Shown here: piece by piece, positions 37,039 through 47,044 of the stretch | Position numbering within the stretch: position 1 is the first letter of the stretch | Layout of the letters: every line of letters starts with the position of its first letter | Assembly (NCBI GenBank): GCA_029204225.1 | Contig: CM055098.1 | Span: forward strand, 51,529,312-51,593,311 | DNA: 64,000 nucleotides | Direction: 5' to 3' | From: Diphasiastrum complanatum | Lineage: Eukaryota; Streptophyta; Lycopodiopsida; Lycopodiales; Lycopodiaceae | Position numbers and translations under genes: made by a program | The notes under the pieces: generated by a model | The model's database searches: none | Seen by the model: only the letters and a program-made list of their open reading frames with translations | What the model was told of the DNA's origin: nothing

Positions 37039-38487
37039 ATATCGAGACTATCTCGAACAATTTGCAAAATATTTTAGATTTCTTCTTCAAACTCAAGAAT
37101 TGTCATCTGTTGTGAACAATTCACAACAGACGAAAATATCGCGAAGAGACAAGTGTTGCGAACACGCGAAACACGAAACTGAGACAAAGAGATGAACTGT
37201 TGCGAATTATTCGCAAACAGATTTTATTCGAGCCTGGAAACATAGTGTGTATTTGAGTATCAACCATTGTAAACGGTTGGATATCTACTATAACAATATT
37301 AAAAGGCCAAAAGACTTATAAATAAAAGGCCAAAAGACCTGTCCTATAGCAATATAAATACATATGCACTACTCGTATTAACTCACTCACTCAATCAAAG
37401 ACACAACAGCGAGCTAAGACAACAAGAGATGTATATTTATGAATCAGATTCAGAGTTATAAAAATTCGTTATTGATCAATAGTTTCTTATTGTCTAAATT
37501 GTCTTAAGTTGTCTCTTACTTCCGCATATAATTTCCGCACTCATATTCAATCGGAACAAATATTGTTCTTTTTGTACATAGATTAGATCTAATCGTGATT
37601 GAAGACACTGATATTAGTTTGATTTACTCAAACTTGCATCATGTTCTTTGTGGAAGAATAATTACTATTTTTCCTACATTTAAGTTAATTTTATATGGAA
37701 ATAGCCTAAAATATATCATGAAAATTGTTGAGTTAGCCCAATTTCATGTGGTAAAAAATCAGCTAACATTTTGGCGACTTTCACCGAGGGTGTGGTCCCC
37801 ACATAACGGACTCAAAGTAATCGAAATTTTTAGTTATAGTGAAACTCATATCCATAGTCAATAGGAACAAAGTAATCATTTGTATGGTCAATGACTTGTC
37901 GTTATGCCAACTAGCTATGTATCTGGTGAGGGTACAGTCTTATGGTGGCATTAGGATTTGCTTGAGTTGATCCTCAGTCACTCATTTATGACAGCTTTAC
38001 ATGCTTGTAACAGTCTGATAGGATGTCAGCCCAGCTAGATGGAGAATGTAAGTCTCATGGTGGCAGTAGAATTTCCTCAGTTTGAGCCATGACACTCATG
38101 TGTTCCACTTGTGTGAAAGTCATATACGAGACAACTCCATTAGTCGAGAGTGTGGAAGATTTTCTCGTGAGCATCGTGCGTCCACGATACTTTGGCAGTT
38201 CGTATTTCTTTACTCCTATCACATTTGAGCTAAAAGGAGAAAGTTAGAAATCAGAGTTAACTTAATATACATTTTATAAGCTTCAAATGTGATATTGTTT
38301 AGTGTACAGTTAATTAGATTTCCTATACTGTTTGGTTGAGATCAGAATGTAATTCGCCATCGACATATCAATCGGGCAATCGTCTCGTAGCCAATTGCTT
38401 GGATTAGCCGAGTAACCACATGTATGAAAAATTAGATTGTATAGTGCTATTTAAAAAACTTGCTATACTCGGGGGCATGTCTCAAGT

Positions 38488-39184
38488 TTGTCGGTCAAAT
38501 TTGGGACCTTAATTTGGCGGTCAAATTTGGGATTACCTATTGATATTTGGTTTTTACCTATTGATATTTGGCATTCCTGGTTATTACGTATAGCTTGGTT
38601 TTCCTTTGGACCTATTGATTGGTGCTGGTTTTTCCATATTACTGATTGCCTATGGTGCGACAGATATCTCTATGATTATGCATGTGGCTCTCTATCTGTT
38701 CCTTGGATTGTTGCTCATTGTCAGGCTTGGCACTGTCCTGATGGCTTGGGTTATTGCCTCCGTTCTGGCTACTGTTTGTCCTGGTGATCTTCAGGTTCCC
38801 TTCCATTTTGGGTTGGTCCATATCGCTTGGTCTCCGATGTTGAGTTGCCCCTTCTCCTCTCTTGGATAGTTTTTGAGGGTGTTGTTGCCATATACTCCAG
38901 TGTTGCTCATATGTGCTTTGATACTCATTCCCAGCTACATGTGTATATTGTTTCGATGCTTGCTACTGATGTTGCGGATCCTGTTCCTCGTTCCAGTGCA
39001 TTTCTTCTATTCCTCACTTCTGCGCTTGGTGTGTACTTTGGGACTACATTTGCGGCCAATTATGATGGGTCATCTGATTCTCCATCCGTTTTTGGTGTAT
39101 CCTATGATGGATTGGTATCTCCATTTGAGGTCTTTCTGGATGAGTTTTTCGGCTAAATTTTTATACTTGGGGCCTCTGCATTGA
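38488..39184 (+). pseudogene. unrecognised open frames in segment G, copy 2
   Basis: Two overlapping frames: 38,606-38,869 (hydrophobic, GAGFSILLIAYGATDISMIM) and 38,827-39,156 (containing FDTHSQLHVYIVSMLATDV, SSDSPSVFGVSYDGLVSPFE and a DEFFG end). The same two frames are kept in copy 3 (60,816-61,079 and 61,037-61,366). Weak similarity of the second to the Ser/Pro-rich region at 20,800-21,100 suggests a retrotransposon spacer protein. No function assigned. Confidence 0.35.
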
Positions 39185-39683
39185 TTTCTTGGACCTTTTC
39201 ATCTTTGAAAATCAAATGAGGTAATTTATTAGAGCTTGTTGGCTAGCAATGGATCACTCTCATTCATTCACACAGAACATGCATTCAATAGATGGGAAAA
39301 TGAGGTAGCTAGCTAGCGACAAACCAATCTCACTCAACTTTGGATTGATACTCATAATGGTAGAAATAGAGCTTGCTGTACTTTTGTTTCATATTGATCA
39401 TTTTGATCAAATTCTACGTCTTTGATTGACATTCTCATGATATCGTCACCTTTGAATGAACAACCTGGGTATATGGTATGTAGGAATTTTCAAACTTGCC
39501 TTTCCCTCAACCACAAATCTCCCTCTCACCACCAACATCATGTGCCACACCTATTTTTTGTCTCGTCTCATATTCACCCTCACTCACATGCCTATTTGTA
39601 AGCTGGAATCACAGCCTTTGCACATAACATCTCACGCTCTGTCAAATCAGATGATATACATATAACTGGGAGACGTGCGGGGG

Positions 39684-39847
39684 GAGAGAGAGAGAGAGAG
39701 AGAGAGAGAGAGAGAGAGAGAGAGAGAGAGAGAGAGAGAGAGAGAGAGAGAGAGAGAGAGAGAGAGAGAGAGAGAGAGAGAGAGAGAGAGAGAGAGAGAG
39801 AGAGAGAGAGAGAGAGAGAGAGAGAGAGAGAGAGAGAGAGAGAGAGA
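39684..39847. repeat. (GA)n microsatellite, 164 bp
   Basis: Pure GA tract within segment G, homologous in position to 20,473-20,562 and 61,890-62,009. Confidence 0.99.
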
Positions 39848-40126
39848 TTGATTTTGATTTAATAGACGAATGTGATTCTATACCATTAACTGATATACCA
39901 ACAGCATCTGGAGTCTATCCAAATCTTCATGCAGAAAAAAGAAGATATCGGGATATGAGGCAGTGGATTAGACATTTGCAAGAGGAAGAGAATCTTGAAG
40001 GTGATAGAGCAACAGCCGAAGTTCATTCTTCACTAGTGCAACCCTCGAATGATTCATGTATAGATAGATATGAATGCTCAGTTGCATCATCATGAAGAAC
40101 CCATCAAGGAAGCATCGCAAACAGAA

Positions 40127-45010: not shown

Positions 45011-45290
45011 ATGCACAAGTACAAAACACAAATAATATAAAATTATTGTATGATTCTAATGTTTTAATTTTTAGATATACCTATTCTTATACATTGTCGC
45101 TTACATGATTCTTATGCTAATCTTGGTACAGGTTCGAGCTCTACACGCATATCTCTCTCCTTTTGTTAACACAGGTATGAAAGTCCCACTCCAATATGCA
45201 TTAAAGTTCTGTAATCGATTTTCTTTTCCACTGCATTTTGATATATTAGGGTTTATTGTAATGTATTGTATGTTTATAGATGTAGTAATC
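45011..45290. promoter_or_regulatory. divergent promoter region of CACTA copy 2
   Basis: Equivalent to 14,925-15,212. AT-rich, no defined promoter motif. Sequence similarity to copy 1 is high. Confidence 0.4.
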
Positions 45291-46266
45291 ATGGTGGGGT
45301 CAGGCAGTGGTGAAAGCTCGGGAGACTTTGTAAAAAATTTATATGAATCATTAACTCCCGAGCAAAGAACACAACTGCAAAATATGCTTAGCCAAAATGA
45401 GGGTGGTCCCTCACAAGAGGCCGCGGCTCCCGCCCCCACCGAAGAGTCATCCACAAATCCTTATTATGACGTGGATCCTCAAGGCAATATAATTGCTAAT
45501 AGAAAAGGAAGGGCGGTTTTGGACCGACTCTATTCTTTATGCCAACGTCATTTTGGCGACAGATTATTTAGTAAATGGTCCGAACAACCTGCCGCCGATA
45601 AACGACAGGTTTATGGTACCCTTCGTGACAAATTCCAACAAGAAGAGAAATTCGAGAAGCAGGAAATTCATAAGCATATGAGCTTATGGTTGTGATATGG
45701 CACGACGAGCTTATAGGGACGGGAAATCCAAGCCTTCCTGGTGTTCAAGAAGTGATTGGAACTATGTAAAAGCGTGAACGAACACCAGATAAATACAAGA
45801 AAGATGTTGCGGCCGCTAGGATGCATAGGATAGGCAATCCTAGGTTGGGCTCGAGCGGAAAGGCGGGATTGCAAGCAAGCATGGTAAGTGAACTTACACT
45901 ACTCTTATAGTTTATCTTTGATTTTATATGCTTTTATTATTTAATATGCATTATGACTAGCTGCTTCAACGTAGCCCTAAATTAATTTCAACTTCAATTG
46001 AATGCATGGATAGTTGGCGGACTATGGACGTCTGCCAACTAAGGAGGAGTACGAATTTGCCTTCAGGAAATCGTACGACACATTAGTTGACAAACTAAAG
46101 AACAAGGGTCATCCTCCAAATGTAAGTACTAGTTTTTGTATTTATACTAATGTGGTTTGTATTTCGACATCAATTTAATTTAATTTAATACGATCAAGCA
46201 TTAAATATTAATGTAGTTTGTTTGCTTGTTTTCATGCAGACTGGACGTCACGATGACGACGAGTAG
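45291..46266 (+). pseudogene. CACTA TnpA-like gene, copy 2
   Basis: Starts MVGSGSGESSGDFVKNLYES at 45,291. Exon 1 stays open to 45,695 and includes the WSEQPAADKRQVYGTLRDKF block, which is disrupted in copy 1. The next block has ARRAYRDGKSKPSWCSRSDWN with frame breaks; then PTKEEYEFAFRKSYDTLVDK, donor GTAAGT after HPPN (about 46,120), and the final exon TGRHDDDE with TAG at 46,264. Upstream in-frame codons from 45,105 are probably 5' leader. Confidence 0.65.
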
Positions 46267-46844
46267 ATTAGGTTTATAAGGTTTAGTTGATGTTAGATCT
46301 AGAAAGACTCGTGCGACATTAAAGCACAAATTTTGCAATACATTAATTCATATTATGAAAAATATTATTATTGCAAATGATCGTGCTATATTGCCATTGC
46401 TTTTATATGTGCAATATTTTTTTTTTTTCAAAAATTGCAATGTCAAATTTGGGGATGTGGATTGATGTAATAATCAACTAAGATATGTCGGATTTCAAAA
46501 CAACAATCAATATTATATCTAAAAATCTAAATGAAATTTATGATGTGCACAAAGCATATTGAACATGAAGTAATGCAATAAAATATTGCGATGAAGTAAT
46601 GCATGAAGTATTGTCATTCATAATGAACATGAAATAATGCAATAAAATATAAAATGAAAAGTAGTTTAAGAATGAAAAGTATCTCATGCTTAGTTTGTTG
46701 TTTGATCCAGATGTTGAATGCAACTCAAAAATATTGGTTTAGGGTAAATTCACGAACATCGCTTCTCCAAGAACTCAACTTCAAGAACAGTCCGAGAAAA
46801 ATACGTGCGCTATTTTTTACGCATTTTTTATTTTTTTACCTAAT
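46267..46844. other. CACTA copy 2 internal non-coding sequence
   Basis: Corresponds to 13,371-13,939. AT-rich; no gene. Contains a short repeat series of CATGAAGTAATGCAATAAAATA units at about 46,564-46,650 (also in copy 1, 13,575-13,650). Confidence 0.6.
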
Positions 46845-47044
46845 TTGGGATGTCGGAATCCGACTTCCTAACACGTCGGATAGACGTCGGACATATTTTT
46901 TGATCATTTTGTTAACAGACATCGGATTACGACAACTTTATGGGACGTCGGGTTCCGACATCCAAGATACGTCGGATGGGCGTCGGACATCCGTCGGTGA
47001 AATTTTGGGATCATTCTGTGTTTACAGACGTCGGGATCCGACCA
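46845..47044. repeat. CACTA subterminal repeats, copy 2 (truncated)
   Basis: GATGTCGGAATCCGAC, ACGTCGGATAGACGTCGG and similar motifs as in 12,866-13,370. It stops at 47,044 against copia sequence, so the element terminus is lost. Confidence 0.75.

Follow-up and report, generated by a model that had tools for sequence, protein, structure and literature searches.

Internal inversion of a plant DNA transposon is a kind of event already in print. In the published account of the PIF/Harbinger-like elements of Medicago, as far as it deals with this case, the element MtPH-A6-4-XIV carries an internal inversion in comparison with MtPH-A6-4-Ia, and its authors regard abortive gap repair as the probable trigger (PMC2213677). 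The repair of DNA breaks by end joining has been described in maize, where, according to the sections of that report concerned with it, the repaired sites show deletions and often filler DNA (PMC2686159). For CACTA elements, our search of the open-licence literature found neither an internal inversion nor captured retrotransposon fragments; a CACTA case may nevertheless be in print.

The window analyzed in this work comprises 64,000 bases of the Diphasiastrum complanatum genome (GCA_029204225.1, CM055098.1, positions 51,529,312-51,593,311 of the forward strand), with a GC content of 37.7% and zero Ns. It contains three related copies of a nest built of decayed CACTA plus retroelement fragments, in which the reading frames are broken, and in the second of these copies the centre is inverted. 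Copy 2 resembles the Medicago PIF/Harbinger-like elements, as they are presented in the cited account, in that a DNA transposon copy has a reversed inside relative to a related copy, and nested insertions are present in those families as well; the Medicago case, however, concerns another superfamily and is linked to 60-bp tandem repeats, whereas the joins of copy 2 are devoid of such a repeat (PMC2213677). With end joining at the maize p locus, as reported in the part of that work describing the locus, it would share break repair that united formerly separate sequences with a loss of bases; but the maize event involved filler, a gene fusion and a deletion of about 10 kb, while copy 2 shows an inversion, no filler and losses below 50 bp (PMC2686159). 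The inversion of copy 2 is an ordinary kind of event for a plant genome and opens no long-standing question. Its value lies in being a base-resolved example of nested plant transposable elements scrambled after insertion, with a control for the ancestral order in the same window, and for annotators it means that the order of elements in a single copy may differ from the element's own.

Comparison of the window with itself, which had been suggested as a check in the first-pass annotation, was run as self-BLAST and recovered all three copies as well as the inverted centre. The segments were named A (the CACTA end with the start of TnpD), B (the 3.7-kb centre) and G (the remainder), and the features are as follows:

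13,176-20,782: copy 1, order A-B-G (self-BLAST)
13,176-16,376, plus strand: segment A of copy 1, with a CACTA-like end, a divergent minus-strand ORF (earlier called "TnpA") and the 5' part of TnpD
16,377-16,395, plus strand: 19 bp of TnpD coding sequence in copy 1, missing at a join of copy 2
16,396-20,146, plus strand: segment B of copy 1, in what we read as the ancestral orientation, with the TnpD core (PF02992), DUF4218, the start of a Ty3-type reverse transcriptase, a PBS-like motif and a protease-like ORF (minus strand)
20,147-20,193, plus strand: 47 bp of copy 1 (46 in copy 3), missing at the other join of copy 2
20,194-20,782, plus strand: start of segment G of copy 1, truncated at about 20,782
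37,043-47,042: copy 2, order G-B-A, with B reversed once the flanks are turned to match copy 1 (self-BLAST)
37,043-40,126, plus strand: segment G of copy 2, oriented as in copy 3 and opposite to copy 1
40,126-40,127: join J2, blunt, zero overlap
40,127-43,846, plus strand: segment B of copy 2, the inverted 3.7-kb centre
43,846-43,847: join J1, 2-bp overlap, GT in the orientation of A
43,847-47,042, minus strand: segment A of copy 2, inverted relative to copy 1, truncated at about 47,042
47,482-49,166, plus strand: second TnpD, diverged and decayed, against which the ancestral order at the A/B point of copy 1 was judged
59,234-64,000, plus strand: copy 3, G followed by the right part of B, uninterrupted as in copy 1, running off the window

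Between copies 1 and 2, segment A gave an inverted match (13,176-16,376 against 47,042-43,845; 96.7%) and the centre a direct one (16,396-20,146 against 40,127-43,846; 95.5%), and the start of G was again inverted (20,194-20,562 against 40,126-39,758, and 20,473-20,778 against 39,773-39,464). Copy 3 matched copy 2 directly in G (59,234-62,288 against 37,043-40,126) and in inverted orientation in the centre (62,335-64,000 against 43,846-42,194), and so presents the copy 1 order seen from the opposite strand, with G at 59,234-62,288 and B from 62,335. Kilobase-long matches of more than 95% with E = 0.0 place these relationships far beyond chance, and the claim of the first-pass annotation that the centre of copy 2 lies opposite to its flanks, relative to copy 1, proved correct to within a few bases. 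Its description of the whole as a composite unit is fair for the fragment nest common to the three copies; it does not extend to movement as a single unit, since no copy has both element ends in the window. Outside the copies, a repeat, at most about 250 bp long, occurs three times, with ends at 32,475, 33,811 and 37,039, the last of them stopping 4 bp before copy 2.

At the left breakpoint, the order can be checked against copy 1 and the second TnpD, as copy 3 runs off the window. Copy 1 reads KVLRHFPIIP*LQRLFRCRSLAQLMDWH across this point. In the second TnpD, the counterpart of its stretch KVLRHFPIIP*LQRLFRCRSL (16,325-16,387) is KVLRHFPLIPRLLRMYKCSSF, and that of RCRSLAQLMDWH..., which copy 1 has from 16,373, is RCPTIANLMLWH... 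at 48,059; the strand and the order of the two aligned stretches are the same. The stop and the frame change just upstream indicate that the TnpD of copy 1 is itself decayed. In the second TnpD, KVLRHFPLIPRLLRMYKCSSF and RCPTIANLMLWH are separated by about 170 bp, probably an intron, exactly at the point corresponding to the left breakpoint; as the gap falls at the very point at issue, the second TnpD supports the order and the strand, not the lost bases. The bases that copy 2 lacks at the right breakpoint are present, in unbroken sequence, in both copy 1 and copy 3. The two sides of the left point are consecutive parts of TnpD that follow one another as they do in the second TnpD, and at the right point copy 3 has the same arrangement as copy 1; on this sequence comparison, the copy 1 order is therefore ancestral and that of copy 2 derived. 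The second TnpD together with copy 3 thus bears out the earlier proposal that copy 2 is a derived form produced by inversion with end trimming, and copy 3, which had been cited as confirming the copy 1 order, does so at the right join, the left join lying outside the part of copy 3 present in the window.

Both joins were resolved to the base. At J1 (about 43,847), copy 2 follows segment A up to the equivalent of 16,376 and continues with reversed B from 20,146, the dinucleotide GT being common to both; at J2 (about 40,127), B is matched from 16,396 and G from 20,194, without a shared base. The loss of bases noted in the first-pass annotation is real at both points, but its sizes needed correction: the left point lacks 16,377-16,395, i.e., 19 bp (21 counting the 2-bp overlap) and not about 25, and the right one lacks 47 bp as measured by copy 1 (20,147-20,193) or 46 bp by copy 3 (62,289-62,334), and not about 50. 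The CGAAATA motif, previously interpreted as microhomology at 43,847, sits off the join. It is found at 43,847 and 20,155, i.e., near both breakpoints in the inverted sense, and the 8 bases separating the right-hand motif from the join are absent from copy 2, so the real overlap at J1 is GT only. Within 10 bp of the two lost stretches, no inverted match was longer than 7 bp, a length reached by 56 of 400 random pairs from the copy 1 region, and within 20 bp a 7-bp inverted match was reached by 123 of the 400 random pairs. CGAAATA was rejected as a mark of recombination, because it is at chance level and because crossing there would need one more deletion. Apart from this 7-mer, no repeats were found at the joins. 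Filler DNA was seen neither at J1 nor at J2, which counts against an end-joining model.

Overlaps of 2 and 0 bp, accompanied by small losses, fit two double-strand breaks with end joining, and judging from the sequence of the joins it is likely that the inverted centre of copy 2 originated through two breaks, end trimming and inverted re-ligation. Copy 2 would once have been a decayed CACTA-plus-retrotransposon nest with the order still present in copy 1. One double-strand break in the coding part of TnpD and another in the protease-like ORF would have freed the 3.7-kb piece; the ends would have been trimmed by 19 bp and 47 bp, and the piece would have been re-ligated in reverse by end joining with hardly any homology (overlaps of 2 bp and 0 bp). 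Both breaks presumably belonged to one event, with end joining as the apparent pathway, and the change seems to have taken place in situ and not in a cycle of transposition and gap repair.

The copies resemble plant CACTA (En/Spm) transposons in the TnpD core (PF02992), in DUF4218 (PF13960) and in the subterminal array by segment A; they differ in their broken frames and fused retroelement fragments, and in that neither a pair of CACTA terminal repeats nor a target-site duplication was identified in them. Transposase_21 (PF02992, TnpD) was detected with Pfam in copy 1 at 16,358-16,771 (E 1.4e-38; 132.7 bits against a cut-off of 28.6) and at 16,894-17,436 (E 2e-07), and in copy 2 at 40,074-40,367 (E 8.5e-24), and segment B starts inside TnpD. 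DUF4218, which lies downstream in the TnpD of CACTA (En/Spm) transposons, was found by Pfam at 17,810-18,157 in copy 1 (E 5.3e-09) and at 41,379-41,870 in copy 2 (E 2.8e-11). The subterminal array (26-bp unit, 3.0 copies, 13,041-13,119) is located beside segment A of copy 1 only. A scan with eight CACTA-type strings (four motifs on both strands) gave scattered matches, the one nearest to a copy edge being at 47,232, 190 bp outside copy 2; the copies are truncated or run off the window, and both ends were identified in the window for none of them. No CACTA-type terminus was found at the edges of copy 2.

The state of these edges bears on abortive gap repair, the main rival of end joining, according to which, once the CACTA element had been excised, repair synthesis from the sister or from a further copy would have changed templates, so that the centre ended up reversed. 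This is the trigger favoured by the authors for the inverted interior described in a PIF/Harbinger subfamily of plants, but the inversion, as presented in that part of their report, is tied to tandem repeats inside the element (PMC2213677), and the joins studied here yielded no repeat other than the chance-level 7-mer. With no CACTA-type terminus found at its edges, copy 2 also gives no sign of mobility. We consider gap repair a rather improbable source of the inversion.

The retroelement component of the copies is fragmentary. A single open frame joins the DUF4218 part of TnpD to the start of a Ty3-type reverse transcriptase, and it is uninterrupted in copy 1 as well as in copy 2 (17,810-18,157 and 41,379-41,870). 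The reverse-transcriptase fragment comprises 30 residues (residues 83-112 of 17,810-18,157) matching the Ty3 reverse transcriptase structures 4ol8 (E 7.7e-04) and 7q5b (E 0.0029) in the PDB; Pfam gave no report of it for 17,810-18,157. On the minus strand, a motif resembling a copia-type primer-binding site (PBS) occurs at 19,231 in copy 1 and at 42,944 in copy 2. The protease-like minus-strand ORF, earlier named a retropepsin, gave in copy 3 only a match to PF13650 below the cut-off (E 0.19); Pfam had no match for it in copy 1 or copy 2, and the PDB, searched with copy 2 at E up to 1, had none either. The label "TnpA" was not upheld, as no significant Pfam family was obtained for the copy 1 ORFs searched (best E 0.014, below the cut-off of that model), and the ORF at 14,303-14,536 of copy 1 had no Pfam match. 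Even in copy 1, the reverse-transcriptase fragment and the protease-like one are found on opposite strands, so the common unit was scrambled before the change in copy 2.

Between copies 1 and 2, flank A shows 75 differences in 3,182 sites and centre B 89 in 3,698 (44/2,045 plus 45/1,653), i.e., 2.4% in each (Fisher p 0.94). This equal divergence points to one common history of the centre and flank A, against an imported centre, and favours a flip in place. In the right part of B, where all three copies can be compared, they are nearly equidistant (45/1,653 between copies 1 and 2, 54/1,666 between 1 and 3, and 57/1,653 between 2 and 3), and private sites number 20, 23 and 32 of 1,653 in copies 1, 2 and 3, respectively, which is close to a star. 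These values concern the possibility that copy 2 received its centre from another, inverted copy through gene conversion or ectopic recombination. Oppositely oriented copies are indeed close at hand; however, neither the near-star of the three copies nor the equal distance of the copy 2 centre and flank A from copy 1 agrees with such an exchange, and an exchange by homology should not produce joins that lack homology and have lost 19 and 47 bp. This origin of the centre is highly improbable.

The divergence between copies 1 and 2 is not uniform. Within 300 bp of the joins they differ at 55 of 1,179 sites, against 124 of 5,980 farther off, an approximately twofold excess (p 1.8e-6) in a comparison covering segments A and B and a 279-bp piece of C, with the distance chosen post hoc among 100, 200, 300 and 400 bp (p 0.0013, 0.0010, 1.8e-6 and 5.4e-6, respectively). 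A simple end-joining model does not predict this, and the excess counts against it. In the 279-bp piece of C, which adjoins the join, variability is raised whichever two of the three copies are compared (15, 13 and 15 of 279), and the piece past the GA repeat is not elevated (4/216, 7/220 and 5/216). On the side of the right breakpoint, where copy 3 exists and allows sites to be polarised, changes private to copy 2 were found at 14/579 sites near the join and 17/1,353 far from it (p 0.07), and those private to copy 1 at 10/579 and 16/1,353 (p 0.39). A mutation cluster specific to copy 2 was not retained: although seen at all four distances, the excess is not clearly a property of copy 2 alone (p 0.07). 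The excess may reflect local variability; that the inverting repair was itself mutagenic and left a cluster of substitutions in copy 2 up to about 300 bp from each join is quite unlikely.

The private substitutions also bear on an assembly error, in which part of copy 2 would have been placed in the wrong orientation. Three similar copies inside 51 kb are a setting hard on assemblers, but the window has no Ns, and both joins are exact to the base, 19 and 46-47 bp being absent. Furthermore, copy 2 has private substitutions by the right breakpoint (the 14 of 579 polarised sites given above), so that this part of it was not pieced together from copies 1 and 3. We judge such an error unlikely, and inversion of the centre by end joining remains our preferred reading.

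The window contains other repeats and coding sequences. Copia gag and pol domains are also present in it. An inverted 2.3-kb pair (10,257-12,551 and 56,414-58,706) shows 98.1% identity, closer than the three-copy unit, and parts of it match the copia region at 1.1-1.9 kb with 67-72%. Direct 1.9-kb repeats (49,489-51,390 and 54,077-55,978; 95.4%) each include a 154-bp tandem pair and have a GA-rich interior between them; they were considered as LTRs and rejected, since by eye their edges are without TG...CA or an evident target duplication. Finally, a KH-domain ORF is located at 29,363-29,962 on the minus strand (PF00013, E 6.6e-07) and is likely part of a host gene.
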